Of a stretch of DNA of 64,000 nucleotides, positions 3,853-30,465 are shown one piece after another. Source of the stretch: Arthrobacter sp. HY1533 (GTDB taxonomy: Bacteria > Actinomycetota > Actinomycetes > Actinomycetales > Micrococcaceae); the NCBI RefSeq assembly GCF_027568515.1, contig NZ_JANKZF010000017.1:1-64000 (forward strand), written 5' to 3'. The first letter of the stretch is position 1. Each line of letters opens with the position of its first letter. The notes beneath the pieces were generated by a model. That model was not told where the DNA came from, searched no databases, and was given only the letters and a program-made list of their open reading frames with translations. A program made the position numbers and the translations under genes.

Positions 3853-6003
3853 ATGACAACCCAAGCAGCACACCTGGCCGCAGACCACACCGAAACCCGG
3901 GCCCAGGCCCTGGAAGTGCTTCGGGCGCTGGTGGGCAGGCCGGATGCCGACTTCCACGACGGGCAGTACGAGGCCATCGAGGCATTGGTCGACGGCGGCC
4001 GCCGCGCCCTGGTGGTCCAGCGCACCGGCTGGGGCAAGTCGGCCGTGTACTTTGTGGCGTCGCTGTTGCTGCGCGCCCGCGGCGCCGGCCCCACCCTGAT
4101 CGTCTCGCCCCTGCTGGCGCTCATGCGCGACCAAGTGGCGGCCGCCGAACGCGCCGGCGTGCGTGCCATGGCCATCAACTCGGCCAACGCCACCGATTGG
4201 GGGCTCGTCTCGGAGGCCCTGGCTGCCGACGAGGTGGATGTGCTCCTGGTGTCGCCCGAGCGGCTGACCAACCCGTCCTTCAGGGAAAACCAATTGCCGG
4301 CGCTGGTCCAGCGCACTGGGCTGCTGGTGGTCGATGAGGCTCACTGCATCTCCGACTGGGGCCACGACTTCCGGCCTGACTACCGCCGCATCGCGGACTT
4401 GATCGCCCGGCTGCCAGCCTCCGTGCCCGTCCTGGCCACGACCGCCACGGCCAACTCCCGCGTGGTGGCGGACATTGAGGAACAGCTGGGCACCGGCGTG
4501 TTTACCATCCGCGGGCCCCTGGCCCGCGAGTCGCTGCGCCTGGGCGTGCTGCGCCTTGCCGATTCACGGGACAGGCTGGGGTGGCTGCTGACCCACCTGG
4601 CCGAGCTGCCCGGCAGCGGCATCATCTACACGCTGACGGTCTCTGCCGCGGAAGACACCGCCCGGCTGCTGGCTGAGGCCGGCCACGTGGTCAAGGCCTA
4701 CACGGGGCGCACCGACACCATGGACCGGGAGGCCCTTGAAGAGGCCCTGAAAAACAACCAGGTCAAGGCGCTCGTGGCCACCAGTGCCCTCGGCATGGGT
4801 TTCGACAAGCCGGACCTGGGTTTCGTGGTCCACCTCGGCGCCCCGTCGTCGCCCGTTGCCTACTACCAGCAGGTGGGCCGTGCCGGCCGTGGCAGCGCCA
4901 ACGCCGACGTCCTGCTGCTGCCCGGCACGGAGGACGCGGAAATCTGGCGGTACTTTGCCACGGCGTCCATGCCCGACCAGGAGAAGGCCATGGCCGTGCT
5001 GACCGCGTTGGGGGAGTCGCCCCGGCCCATGTCCACGCCCGCCCTCGAGGCCCGGGTGGACCTGCGCCGCACCCCGCTGGAGCTCCTGCTCAAGGTCCTG
5101 GCCGTGGATGGCGCCGTACGCCGCGTCTCCGGCGGCTGGGAGTCCACGGGCCAGCCGTGGAGCTACGACGAGGAAAGGTACCGCCGCATCGCGCAGGCCC
5201 GCATCGATGAGCAGCAGTCCATGGTGGAGTACGAGCGCATGTCCGGATGCCGCATGGAGTACCTCGCAGCGGCGCTCGACGACGAAACGGCGTCCCCGTG
5301 CGGGCGTTGCGACAACTGCGCGGGGCGCTGGTTTGCCAGCGACGTCCGCTCCAGCGCCGCCGAGGCTGCCGGTGAGTCGCTCAAGCATGCGGGCCTGCCC
5401 CTGGAACCACGGGCCATGTGGCCCACCGGCATGGACCGCCTCGGCGTGCCGGTCAAGGGAAAGCTGAAGGCAGGGGAACTCGTGGCCGGCGGCCGCATCC
5501 TGGCCAGGCTCACGGACCTGGGCTGGGGCAACTCGCTGCGGGCCATGTTCGCCGCCGGCGCCCCGGATGCGCCCATCGATCCGGCCATGGCCCGCGCGGT
5601 TGTTGATGTGCTGCGCGAATGGGGTGCAGCCGGCTGGGAAGGGGCGGGACGGCCCGTCGCCGTGGTTGCCATGCCCTCGCGGAACAAGCCCGTGCTCCTG
5701 CAGTCCTTTGCCCAGGCCATCAGTGAGATCGGGCGGTTGCCGCTCCTGGGCGAGCTGTCACTGGAGTTTGGCGGGCCCACGGGCCAGCGCGGCGGCAACA
5801 GTGCCTACCGCCTGGCCGGGGTCTGGGACAGGTTCGCCGTGGGGCCGGAGCTGGCCGCCGCGCTCGCCGCCTGCCCGCCCGGGCCGGTGCTGCTGCTCGA
5901 TGACCTCGTGGACAGCCGCTGGTCCATCACCGTGGCCGGCCGCGCTCTGCGACTGGCCGGCGCCGAGCAGGTCCTGCCGCTGGTGCTCGCCCAGGCCGGC
6001 TAG
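3853..6003 (+). CDS. recQ: RecQ-family helicase with PRTase-like tail
   Basis: This 716-residue 3'-5' DNA helicase works in recombination and repair. Walker A GWGKS is at 59-63 and DEAH at 161-164, followed by CISDWGHDFRPDY, the aromatic-rich loop of RecQ. The helicase C domain contains QQVGRAGRG. Zinc ligands are C466, C483, C486 and C489. In place of an HRDC domain, residues from about 590 resemble a phosphoribosyltransferase fold ending VLLLDDLVDSRW (near 683). The open frame extends far upstream, but the ATG at 3853 follows GGAGG and opens a normal RecQ N-terminus; the earlier frame is antisense to manB. It is convergent with the SDR gene. Confidence 0.9.
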   Translation: MTTQAAHLAADHTETRAQALEVLRALVGRPDADFHDGQYEAIEALVDGGRRALVVQRTGWGKSAVYFVASLLLRARGAGPTLIVSPLLALMRDQVAAAERAGVRAMAINSANATDWGLVSEALAADEVDVLLVSPERLTNPSFRENQLPALVQRTGLLVVDEAHCISDWGHDFRPDYRRIADLIARLPASVPVLATTATANSRVVADIEEQLGTGVFTIRGPLARESLRLGVLRLADSRDRLGWLLTHLAELPGSGIIYTLTVSAAEDTARLLAEAGHVVKAYTGRTDTMDREALEEALKNNQVKALVATSALGMGFDKPDLGFVVHLGAPSSPVAYYQQVGRAGRGSANADVLLLPGTEDAEIWRYFATASMPDQEKAMAVLTALGESPRPMSTPALEARVDLRRTPLELLLKVLAVDGAVRRVSGGWESTGQPWSYDEERYRRIAQARIDEQQSMVEYERMSGCRMEYLAAALDDETASPCGRCDNCAGRWFASDVRSSAAEAAGESLKHAGLPLEPRAMWPTGMDRLGVPVKGKLKAGELVAGGRILARLTDLGWGNSLRAMFAAGAPDAPIDPAMARAVVDVLREWGAAGWEGAGRPVAVVAMPSRNKPVLLQSFAQAISEIGRLPLLGELSLEFGGPTGQRGGNSAYRLAGVWDRFAVGPELAAALAACPPGPVLLLDDLVDSRWSITVAGRALRLAGAEQVLPLVLAQAG

Positions 6004-6013
6004 CCCCAACGGC

Positions 6014-6142
6014 CAACGCCGCATCACACAACGCACGAAAAATCCCAACGCCGCATCACTTAACGTCGAAAAAACAGCAACGCCGCACCACCAAGGGTGG
6101 TGCGGCGTTGCCTGAAAACGTGCATCAGGTGATGCGGCGTTG
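6014..6142. repeat. 32-bp-period inverted-symmetric repeat array
   Basis: Copies of CAACGCCGCA(T/C)CAC start at 6014, 6046 and 6078 on the plus strand, exactly 32 bp apart. On the minus strand copies start at 6110 and 6142, again 32 bp apart. The array therefore inverts around the hairpin at 6077-6111. The unit tail (about 18 bp) is partly conserved: ACAACG or TTAACG, then an A-rich run. The last copy abuts the SDR stop codon. A second array with the same period is at 30338-30465. Confidence 0.85.
6077..6111. terminator. Bidirectional hairpin between recQ and SDR gene
   Basis: A perfect 16-base stem (GCAACGCCGCACCACC and its complement) with a 3-base loop lies between two convergent genes. 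An A-run upstream and a GAAAA segment downstream provide modest T-tracts in either direction. The hairpin is built from two opposed copies of the 32-bp repeat unit. Confidence 0.65.
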
Positions 6143-6901
6143 CTACGCCTCGACCGGGCGCAGGCGCAGGGCCTGCATGCCGCCGTCGACCGCAATCGAG
6201 GTGCCCGTGGTGGAACCGGACAACGGGCTGGCCAGGTAGGCCACGGCGCCGGCTACTTCATCGGCTGCCACGAGGCGGCCATGCGGCTGGCGGGCGTTCA
6301 GGGCTGCGCGCTCTGCGGCGGGATCGTCGGCCTGGTCCAGGAGGCGGCCCACCCAGGGGGTGTCTGCCGTGCCCGGGTTGACGCAGTTGACGCGGACGCC
6401 TTCGCGGAGGTGGTCGGCCGCCATGGCCTGGGTCAGCGACAGCACAGCACCCTTGGTTGCCGAGTACAACGCACGCGCCGGCAGGCCGGCGGTTGCTGCG
6501 ATGGAGCAGATGTTCACAATCGCGGCACCGGAGGACTTGCGCAGGTGCGGCAGTGCGGCGCGGGAAACCCGTACCATGCCCACCACGTTGATGTTCCAGA
6601 CGCGCGCCCATTCGGCGTCGTCGTTGGTTTCCACGGTGCCGATGGCGCCGATGCCTGCATTGTTGACAACAATGTCCACGCCGCCGAAGGCCTCGACGGT
6701 GCCGGCGATGGCGGCCTTGACGCTGGCGTCGTCGGAGACGTCGCAGGCAAAGCCGATCTGGCCCTCCGGGAGGTCCTGGGGGTTCAGGTCAAGGACGGAA
6801 ACCTGTGCACCCATGGACTGCAGCTTCGCGGCAATGGCGGCGCCGATTCCGGATGCGCCACCGGTGACGACTGCTGTGAGGTTGGCTAGTTCCTGGCTCA
6901 T
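6143..6901 (-). CDS. SDR dehydrogenase, likely 2-keto-3-deoxy-L-fuconate dehydrogenase
   Basis: This 252-residue classical short-chain dehydrogenase has the TGGASGIG cofactor loop (about 13-20), NNAG, catalytic serine near NICSIAA, and the YSATK Tyr-Lys pair. Its ATG overlaps the stop codon of the FAH hydrolase gene (ATGA), so the two are translationally coupled. In the non-phosphorylating L-fucose pathway this family oxidises 2-keto-3-deoxy-L-fuconate to the 2,4-diketo acid, which the neighbouring hydrolase cleaves. The family is seen directly; the substrate comes from the island context. An L-fucose dehydrogenase role is less likely because the aldo/keto reductase fills that step. Confidence 0.8.
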   Translation of the reverse strand: MSQELANLTAVVTGGASGIGAAIAAKLQSMGAQVSVLDLNPQDLPEGQIGFACDVSDDASVKAAIAGTVEAFGGVDIVVNNAGIGAIGTVETNDDAEWARVWNINVVGMVRVSRAALPHLRKSSGAAIVNICSIAATAGLPARALYSATKGAVLSLTQAMAADHLREGVRVNCVNPGTADTPWVGRLLDQADDPAAERAALNARQPHGRLVAADEVAGAVAYLASPLSGSTTGTSIAVDGGMQALRLRPVEA

Positions 6902-29344: not shown

Positions 29345-30328
29345 ATGAAGGCAATTTATGCAACGGGCGCAGGCGGCCCCGAGGTGCTCGCCATGGCCGA
29401 TGTGTACGCACCCGTTCCCGGTCCGGGCGAGGTGCTCATTGACGTGGTTGCGGCCGGCATGAACCGTGCCGACGTCCAGCAGCGCCGCGGCTTCTACCCG
29501 CCCCCGCCCGGCGCGTCCCCCATTCTCGGGCTGGAAGTCTCCGGCCGCATTGCCGGCTTTGGCCCCAACGTGACAAAGCCCTTCAGCATTGGCGACAAGG
29601 TCGTGGCACTGCTCACCGGCGGCGGCTACGCAGCCCAGGTTGCCGTCCCCGCAGGCCAGGTCCTGCCGCTGCCGGAGGGGATTGATGTGATCTCCGCCGC
29701 CGGGCTGCCCGAGGTGGCCGCCACGGTGCACTCAAACCTTTTCATGACCGCACAGCTGCAGGCCGGCGAAACGCTCCTGGTCCACGGCGGGGCCGGCGGC
29801 ATCGGCGCCATGGCCATCCAGCTGGCCAAGGCGGCGGGTGCCCGAGTTGTTGCCACGGCAGGCAGCGACGAAAAGGTTGCCATGCTCACCAGCTACCTGG
29901 GTGCCGATCTGGCGGTCAACTACCGCAGCGAGGACTTCGTGGAGCGTGTGCGTGACTTCACCGACGGCGAGGGCGCAAACGTCATCCTCGACGTGGTCGG
30001 GGCCAAGTACCTGGCCCGCAACGTCGAGGCCCTGGCCACCTACGGCCGGCTCGTGGTCATTGGCCTCCAGGGAGGCGCGACGGCGGAGCTGAACCTGGGC
30101 GCCCTGCTCACCAAGCGCGCCGCCATCATTGGCACCACCCTGCGGGCACGGTCGGTGGAGGAAAAGACGGCCATCATGGAGGGTGTGCGCGACCACGTCT
30201 GGCCCCTCATCGCCAGCGGCGCCGTCAAGCCCATGGTGGACAGGACATTCCCGCTGGCACAGGTAGCCGCCGCGCACGAATACTTTGACTCCGGCGCCCA
30301 CGTGGGCAAGGTCCTGCTGACCCTCTGA
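29345..30328 (+). CDS. NAD(P)H:quinone oxidoreductase, zinc-free MDR family
   Basis: This 327-residue medium-chain dehydrogenase/reductase of the quinone oxidoreductase class has GMNRADVQQRRGFYPPPPG (substrate/dimer region), the nucleotide-binding LLVHGGAGGIGAMAIQLAK near 145, and LDVVGAKYLARN. The zinc cysteines of alcohol dehydrogenases are absent. The start giving MKAIYATG has GGAG seven bases upstream; a start 12 bases earlier is possible. It stands alone between a tRNA and a repeat array. Confidence 0.88.
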   Translation: MKAIYATGAGGPEVLAMADVYAPVPGPGEVLIDVVAAGMNRADVQQRRGFYPPPPGASPILGLEVSGRIAGFGPNVTKPFSIGDKVVALLTGGGYAAQVAVPAGQVLPLPEGIDVISAAGLPEVAATVHSNLFMTAQLQAGETLLVHGGAGGIGAMAIQLAKAAGARVVATAGSDEKVAMLTSYLGADLAVNYRSEDFVERVRDFTDGEGANVILDVVGAKYLARNVEALATYGRLVVIGLQGGATAELNLGALLTKRAAIIGTTLRARSVEEKTAIMEGVRDHVWPLIASGAVKPMVDRTFPLAQVAAAHEYFDSGAHVGKVLLTL

Positions 30329-30337
30329 GCACCCCCC

Positions 30338-30465
30338 CGACGCGGCATCACCTAACGTCGCTTTTCCGGCAACGCCGCATCACACAACGTTGCTTTTCCG
30401 CCAACCCTCCCTCACTTTCGTGGCATTAACTCCCAACCCTCCCTCACTACCTCGGATCGGGCTGG
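30338..30465. repeat. Second 32-bp-period tandem repeat array
   Basis: Four units start at 30338, 30370, 30402 and 30434, exactly 32 bp apart. Units 1 and 2 carry CGACGCGGCATCAC and CAACGCCGCATCAC and share a GCTTTTCCG tail. Units 3 and 4 both carry CAACCCTCCCTCACT. The unit 2 head is identical to the heads at 6014 and 6046. There is no inverted half here. The array begins nine bases after the quinone oxidoreductase stop codon. Confidence 0.85.

Follow-up and report, generated by a model that had tools for sequence, protein, structure and literature searches.

Our analysis indicates that the repeat array located at positions 6014-6142 of the 64,000-nucleotide stretch of Arthrobacter DNA studied here (the window) is one member of a dispersed, lineage-restricted family of Arthrobacter-like bacteria, with a fixed geometry and mostly species-specific words. 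The unit has 32 bp and consists of a word, RACGC-N5-YRS, followed by a linker that usually carries a T-run at unit positions 25-27 and by C-rich bases before the next word. We regard the existence of this family of gene-end arrays with a 32-bp step as practically certain. The feature is thus larger than the single curiosity described in the initial annotation, which missed that the arrays follow stop codons in a mostly sense orientation and that other words are used in other species. Gene ends are marked by signals that are better known in E. coli or Bacillus than in high-GC actinobacteria, and the family would represent a gene-end repeat system in the latter. Because its geometry is constant and its words change, it lends itself to testing directly whether short extragenic repeats are functional end-of-transcription modules or tolerated parasites.

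The array at 6014-6142

Five copies of the word CAACGCCGCA(T/C)CAC, three direct and two inverted, were found exactly where they had been annotated, all of them with 0 mismatches to CAACGCCGCAYCAC, and the spacing claimed for them was borne out (32 and 32 bp between the direct copies, 32 bp between the inverted ones). The array fills the whole gap between two convergent genes, a RecQ-type helicase and a short-chain dehydrogenase/reductase (SDR). The coordinates are given in Table 1.

Table 1. Coordinates of the two arrays of the window and of the genes flanking the first one
Feature	Position	Strand	Remarks
Core copy 1, CAACGCCGCATCAC	6014..6027	+	10 bases 3' of the stop codon at 6001-6003
Linker 1	6028..6045	+	AAAAA (6038-6042) at the place of TTT(T) in most one-way arrays
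Core copy 2, CAACGCCGCATCAC	6046..6059	+	
Linker 2	6060..6077	+	AAAAAA at 6069-6074, T6 on the minus strand
Core copy 3, CAACGCCGCACCAC	6078..6091	+	
Inverted core copy 4, CAACGCCGCACCAC	6097..6110	-	
Inverted core copy 5, CAACGCCGCATCAC	6129..6142	-	directly 3' of the SDR stop codon
Intrinsic-terminator-like site	6069..6112	-	17-pair stem (6112-6076), then G and T6
Upstream gene, DEAD helicase with RecQ zinc-binding domain	3853..6003	+	
Convergent gene, short-chain dehydrogenase/reductase (SDR)	6143..6901	-	
Second window array	30338..30447	+	four words, all in 32-bp register, the 13-base word starting at 30339, 30371, 30403 and 30435

The innermost copies (3 and 4) form a perfect 16-bp inverted repeat (6077-6092/6096-6111) with a loop of 3 bases. 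Both left linkers carry A-runs, which place T6 after the hairpin when read in the direction of the SDR gene; the minus strand thus has the GC-rich stem-loop followed by a T-run (GTTTTTT) of an intrinsic terminator, and on the plus strand of the window no T-run was found after the central hairpin. By its sequence, the central hairpin with its T6 is a normal-looking intrinsic-terminator-like site for the SDR gene. The claim that the array is more ordered than an ordinary terminator holds, yet this normal-looking site at its center had been missed. The predicted folds of 6000-6150 reached -85.8 kcal/mol on the minus strand (z -8.0 versus shuffles) and -72.2 kcal/mol on the plus strand (z -7.9). 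Searching 1001 bases around the array against the Rfam families gave six matches, all below their gathering scores and of unrelated kinds (the best, MIR4387, with 30.4 bits against a gathering score of 84, E 0.00065), which we took as artefacts of fold shape.

It had also been claimed that the 32-bp period is kept on both sides of the hairpin. This is right for 6014-6142 and does not extend to the family. Among 25 pairs of facing arrays, the distance from the last forward to the first reverse copy of the 13-base word went from 28 to 126, with 28 as the commonest value (7 of the 25) and the 30 of the window found once. The 32-bp phase spanning the hairpin (6078 to 6110) is therefore a peculiarity of this locus.

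The exact 14-mer is present 13 times in the 4.3-Mb genome of the same strain, versus once for the pattern read backwards. The 13-mer AACGCCGCATCAC with at most one mismatch appears 63 times (control 11), with many copies separated by exactly 32 bp. Within the window, the word with up to three mismatches did not exceed chance (31 versus a mean of 28.3 in 100 shuffles), indicating that the signal resides in the exact word and its spacing. Degenerate pairs at 32 bp were found six times in the window, versus a mean of 0.14 and a maximum of 2 in 50 dinucleotide shuffles. The second window array, absent from the initial annotation, starts 10 bases 3' of the stop of a plus-strand gene ending at 30328; its first two words are of the GCATCAC type and the following two are AACCCTCCCTCAC, the register being unbroken across the change of word. 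Its third linker has ATTAA where TTT would be expected. Pairs of AACCCTCCCTCAC were tried as a wider family word and discarded, being found (with at most one mismatch) only in the genome of the window among 100 family genomes. In another genome of the genus (G003, locus L135, 3034-3206) six tandem units are nearly identical, apparently a recent expansion.

Distribution of the 32-bp geometry

Looking for the word at 32-bp spacing in related genomes, as had been proposed, was strongly positive. The generic two-word pattern (two RACGC words 32 bp apart, the second with YRS, and TTT between them at unit positions 25-27) was matched in 22 of the 23 genomes of the genus, from 0 matches in G010 up to 92 in G011, while the reversed pattern used as control gave 0 in all 23. 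The word of the window is a narrower marker. Pairs of the type RACGCNGCATCAC-N19-RACGCNGCATCAC were detected in 9/23 genus genomes with one mismatch allowed (control 0 in all 23), and exact pairs of this GCATCAC word in 2 out of 149 family genomes. This word was consequently rejected as a definition of the whole family and the generic pattern was used instead. Three words in register were found in 9 of 158 family genomes, belonging to 2 of 32 genera (the own one and one other), and in 5 of 297 genomes across the order, all from the same family, with 0 matches for the control in both searches; for this three-word pattern there were none outside the family among the 297 order genomes, and none in viral contigs.

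The period is very strict. At 53 loci fetched by protein similarity instead of by the repeat itself, pairs of RACGC-N5-YRS were separated by 32 bp in 46 cases, by 31 in two, by 33 in one and by 64 in 18, with at most two at any other lag between 15 and 80. An earlier lag count, with 226 pairs at 32 bp, was set aside as evidence because most of the DNA behind it had been fetched with 32-bp patterns. Arrays were also found in records titled Sporosarcina beigongshangi REN13 (NZ_JADHDY...; L092-L097, L099-L101). The positions of these matches agree with those of a genome of the window's genus (G015), and the label or the assembly looks wrong.

Words change between genomes

Across the genus we compared the 3' flanks of two sets of orthologs, those of the SDR gene and those of a gene for a 125-aa protein that adjoins an Mrp/NUBPL-type ATPase gene; the 125-aa product, provisionally labelled TatB, had no Pfam match. 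The 32-bp layout recurred with different words, RACGC being followed by TCTATCAC, TCCCTCAT, TCGGTTRS, TCCTGCAG, GTATCAC forms and others. A pair at 32 +/- 1 bp was present at 12/21 SDR ends (control 0) and at 15/23 ends of the 125-aa gene (control 1), indicating that an array often stays at its position even though its word is exchanged. The SDR set omits G005 and G014, which have no close ortholog, and the second copy of G006. Six orthologous ends (L201, L202, L225, L232, L233, L234) had no 32-bp pair; some of them showed a simple long hairpin or hardly any gap at all, and they may be of use as natural controls.

The array of a given locus was closer to the other arrays of its own genome than to its orthologous arrays in 8/9 genomes for the 125-aa gene and in 7/7 for the SDR gene, a comparison in which some of the genome sets had been picked with the GCATCAC word. 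The comparison free of this bias used the set selected with the generic pattern (80 arrays from 6 genomes). Here the eight variable positions of the word differed by a mean of 2.35 within and 3.55 between genomes, a contrast reached by 0 of 1000 label shuffles. The words are, therefore, mostly genome-specific. In G005, TCGGTTA(C/G) accounts for 30 of 36 words and in G006, TCCT(G/T)CAG for 36 of 56; those of G008 are mixed, the commonest being TATCCCAC (8/50). The words of each genome would have been homogenized through copying between arrays.

Place and orientation of the arrays

Two collections were analyzed. Set 1 contained 80 regions plus the window, from 6 genomes and mainly matches to the GCATCAC word, leaving out G009, G011, G015 and a few other places; nine of the 80 regions gave no array under the array-calling rule. 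Set 2 contained 80 regions obtained with the generic pattern, among the matches listed (G001, G003, G005, G006, G008 and G009). Genes were called by a custom script in place of curated annotation, with a codon model derived from the window for set 1 and from the regions of set 2 for the second set, and the set 2 placement count excludes clusters that were not flanked on each side by a called gene (L266, L307).

In set 1, 43 arrays were located between tandem genes, 38 between convergent and only 3 of the 84 between divergent genes, compared to 122, 26 and 48 for the array-free gaps of at least 60 bases within the same array-bearing loci. The corresponding numbers for set 2 were 45, 37 and 0 (0/82) versus 53, 13 and 22 for array-free gaps. 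Divergent gaps, tested against the two other classes together, were significantly short of arrays in both sets (Fisher test, p 7e-6 and 1e-7, respectively). One-way arrays between tandem genes were mostly sense to the upstream gene, 27 out of 31 in set 1 and 34 out of 44 in set 2 (binomial p 0.0004), the rest (4/31 and 10/44) pointing in the opposite direction. They also lie close to the gene, as 62 of the 78 one-way arrays of set 2 begin no more than 60 bases from the gene that precedes them, at a median distance of about 20. The gaps between convergent genes often contained two arrays facing each other.

Structure of a unit

Unit positions 25-27 were T in 93, 95 and 89% of the 91 linkers lying between words in the one-way arrays of set 1, a set unselected for T, and in 26-29% of the cases after the last word. 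An array is thus built as word-linker-word, so that n words enclose n-1 T-runs. In the facing arrays of set 1 the same positions had T in 65-71% and A in 23-29%. Among 46 units found without requiring T, mostly from facing arrays, 21 had TTT at 25-27 and 30 had at least two T.

The 3' part of the linker is often GG-rich and can pair with the 5' part of the word. The predicted energy of the 25 nt before the T-run was -4.89 kcal/mol versus -3.67 for dinucleotide shuffles (75 non-redundant units), and a stem of at least 5 bp ending by the T-run was found in 51% of these units versus 20% of mononucleotide shuffles, stems of at least 7 bp in 7/75. However, the stability along the unit has two equal minima, -5.33 kcal/mol at offset 17 and -5.24 at offset 1. 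In the alternative fold, that at offset 17, the linker folds forward onto the following word and leaves the T-run inside the loop, and it would not be terminator-like. Covariation between word and linker was modest. Linker swaps matched the observed energy in 1/500 trials for all 237 segments, in 30/500 for the 75 non-redundant units and in 37/500 when one unit per word type was taken. In the register i+j=27, the best of 12 tried, 49.2% of positions were paired versus 46.5% (swap null 1/300). The loop bases YCAS (TCA(C/G)) were as conserved as the arms. A strong unit hairpin was considered as the unifying feature and rejected as sole constraint. With a hairpin in only part of the units, a weak covariation and a conserved loop, these fold predictions indicate that many units probably form a hairpin and that another constraint is likely to act besides.

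What the arrays may do

The reading that we favor, tentatively and at somewhat short of an even chance, is that the arrays are a REP/BIME-like family of tandem gene-end modules of the terminator type, with a function in termination or 3'-end formation. In the nascent RNA each array would form a cluster of short hairpins with their U-runs, by which RNA polymerase would be helped to stop or the 3' end would be fixed. In facing arrays the innermost words would form a strong hairpin that, together with a T or A run, would make a full intrinsic terminator; in the window, the inner hairpin and T6 would terminate the SDR transcript on the minus strand. This role is favored by the sense position 3' of stop codons, the hairpin and T modules, the facing arrays and an excess of terminator-like sites. 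Such sites (stem of at least 5 and at least four T) were found at 32 of 91 gene ends with arrays and at 25 of 247 without, a 3.5-fold excess that is partly built in because the arrays were picked by TTT, and gene ends with a more distant array, or with one on the opposite strand, did not enter the count. The structure found after the last word did not differ from that of array-free gene ends (mean z -2.06 versus -2.35, p 0.80). The weak stems, the short T-runs, the nearly half of units without a 5-bp stem and the equally stable alternative fold all speak against termination, and it is this alternative fold, together with the T count of the 46 units, that lowers the standing of the reading.

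Clustered hairpins close to stop codons have been proposed to act together as intrinsic terminators (PMC8355165), and the likeness to our arrays would lie in neighboring hairpins that act jointly at up to about 80 bases from the stop codon; the abstract of that report describes neither a sequence family nor a fixed period, nor a word particular to a species. In the first 100 bases 3' of the stop, the sense strand had C/G fractions of 0.36/0.24 at array ends and of 0.32/0.29 at array-free ends. To judge from this composition, the excess of C over G at the former might fit an involvement of Rho.

The main alternative, which we consider doubtful, is a DNA-level array of sites for a putative protein that would bind the word always on the same face of the helix (32 bp being about three turns), building a filament or a roadblock at gene ends. 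The site could be a transcription boundary or a site for gyrase or a nucleoid protein, and the word would coevolve with the protein, giving rise to the species dialects. BIMEs bind DNA gyrase and IHF. Such binding fits well with a period that is strict even at loci not picked by it and that is held where the word changes, as in the second array of the window, and with words that are more alike within than between genomes. The bases of the word are also better conserved than the pairing, although the conservation of RACGC is not to be judged from a set selected by pattern, RACGC being fixed in the search pattern. However, a strict period can also be handed down by duplication, and the sense orientation with respect to the upstream gene points to transcription. 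A bolder version, rather improbable in our opinion, is a lineage-restricted boundary element with a constant three-turn geometry whose word has been replaced genome-wide in each species, and at which a coevolving reader in trans, either a protein or an RNA, would stop or insulate transcription at the ends of dozens of genes. A reader of this kind would be implied by the constancy of the 32-bp geometry together with the replacement of the word in each species.

Next in order, and also unlikely in our view, is that the arrays are selfish or neutral short repeats (REP/BIME- or MITE-like) spread by copying and tolerated only 3' of genes, with an incidental effect on termination. The initial annotation had suggested a mobile element, or else an RNA-processing one; the former is supported only indirectly, by the dispersed copies that are more alike within genomes. 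The scarcity of the arrays inside genes and between divergent genes agrees with tolerated repeats. Six near-identical arrays of the own genome, with CCACTACC- and CTTTGACG-like flanks, look like hitch-hiking copies. Five of them are located upstream of related genes (L104, L106, L113, L118, L119) whose proteins are 81-87% identical; the one of the five that was scanned, from L106, is DUF222 plus HNH by Pfam. Repeats of the GGTCGAGCCTGTCGAGACC type lie between array and gene at the five loci. Gene, array and repeats look like a multi-copy, possibly mobile unit, and the near-identical arrays have probably spread together with the gene and not alone. The sixth (L125) has no gene of this group beside it. 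On the other hand, mobility finds no support in a tied Y1 transposase (PF01797 was detected in 2/23 genus genomes and 0 times in the own one) nor in viral contigs, where the three-word pattern is absent, and mere tolerance is at odds with the orientation bias and with the recurrence of the 32 +/- 1 pair at the orthologous ends described above.

That the window feature is simply one ordinary bidirectional Rho-independent terminator with locally duplicated arms has hardly any probability left: its minus strand is indeed a good terminator-like site, but the genus-wide 32-bp architecture, absent from the control and often lacking an inverted arm, refutes it as a full account. Still more remote is a DUS-like uptake sequence of a competent actinobacterium, with genome dialects and frequent inverted pairs at gene ends. 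The dialects and the terminator-like inverted pairs do resemble Neisseriaceae DUS as described in the accessible part of PMC3630211, where such short words reach thousands of copies per genome, but the 13 exact 14-mers of the own genome and the 0-92 patterned pairs per genus genome amount to tens at most.

Comparison with known repeat families

The nearest class for the 32-bp arrays is that of REP/BIME elements. As far as the consulted part of the survey goes (PMC3733652), these have units of 20-40 bp, are extragenic and mostly 3' of genes, include species-specific types and often face each other. The arrays resemble them in size range, in their gene-end placement between tandem or convergent genes, in having species-specific types and in the facing pairs that give larger hairpins. 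They are likewise extragenic and 3' of coding regions. REPs of these types carry an unpaired GTAG or CGTC tag at one end; the RACG at the 5' end of the Arthrobacter-type unit reads CGTY on the other strand, being CGTC only if R = G, which is the case in 69% of 248 pattern-selected units. However, CGTC-type REPs are 8-9-bp palindromes, mostly in head-to-head dimers (PMC3733652, same part), whereas our arrays are head-to-tail, have a unit hairpin that is weak or often absent, and commonly have a T-run. A stable palindrome in each unit was not found, with only about half of the 75 units reaching even 5 bp. GTAG-type REPs are tied to RAYT transposases according to the same text, and 21 of the 23 genus genomes carry no Y1 transposase of this type. 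The missing robust palindrome, the head-to-tail arrangement at a fixed 32 bp and the missing tie to a Y1 transposase are the reasons for not filing the arrays as REP. A table of counts in another REP survey names an Arthrobacter species (PMC12306157, seen in part).

Our literature searches for the repeat words and for repeats of Arthrobacter or Micrococcaceae, which left subscription papers largely outside, showed no description of the arrays among the papers listed. The MIRU-VNTR of mycobacteria are also actinobacterial intergenic tandem repeats, but with longer units and no such layout of word and T-run; they are set apart by this general description only. The arrays had been declared not to be a CRISPR, and their anatomy agrees. 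Instead of identical repeats with unrelated unique spacers, they have linkers that are mostly alike within an array, with T usually at one fixed place.
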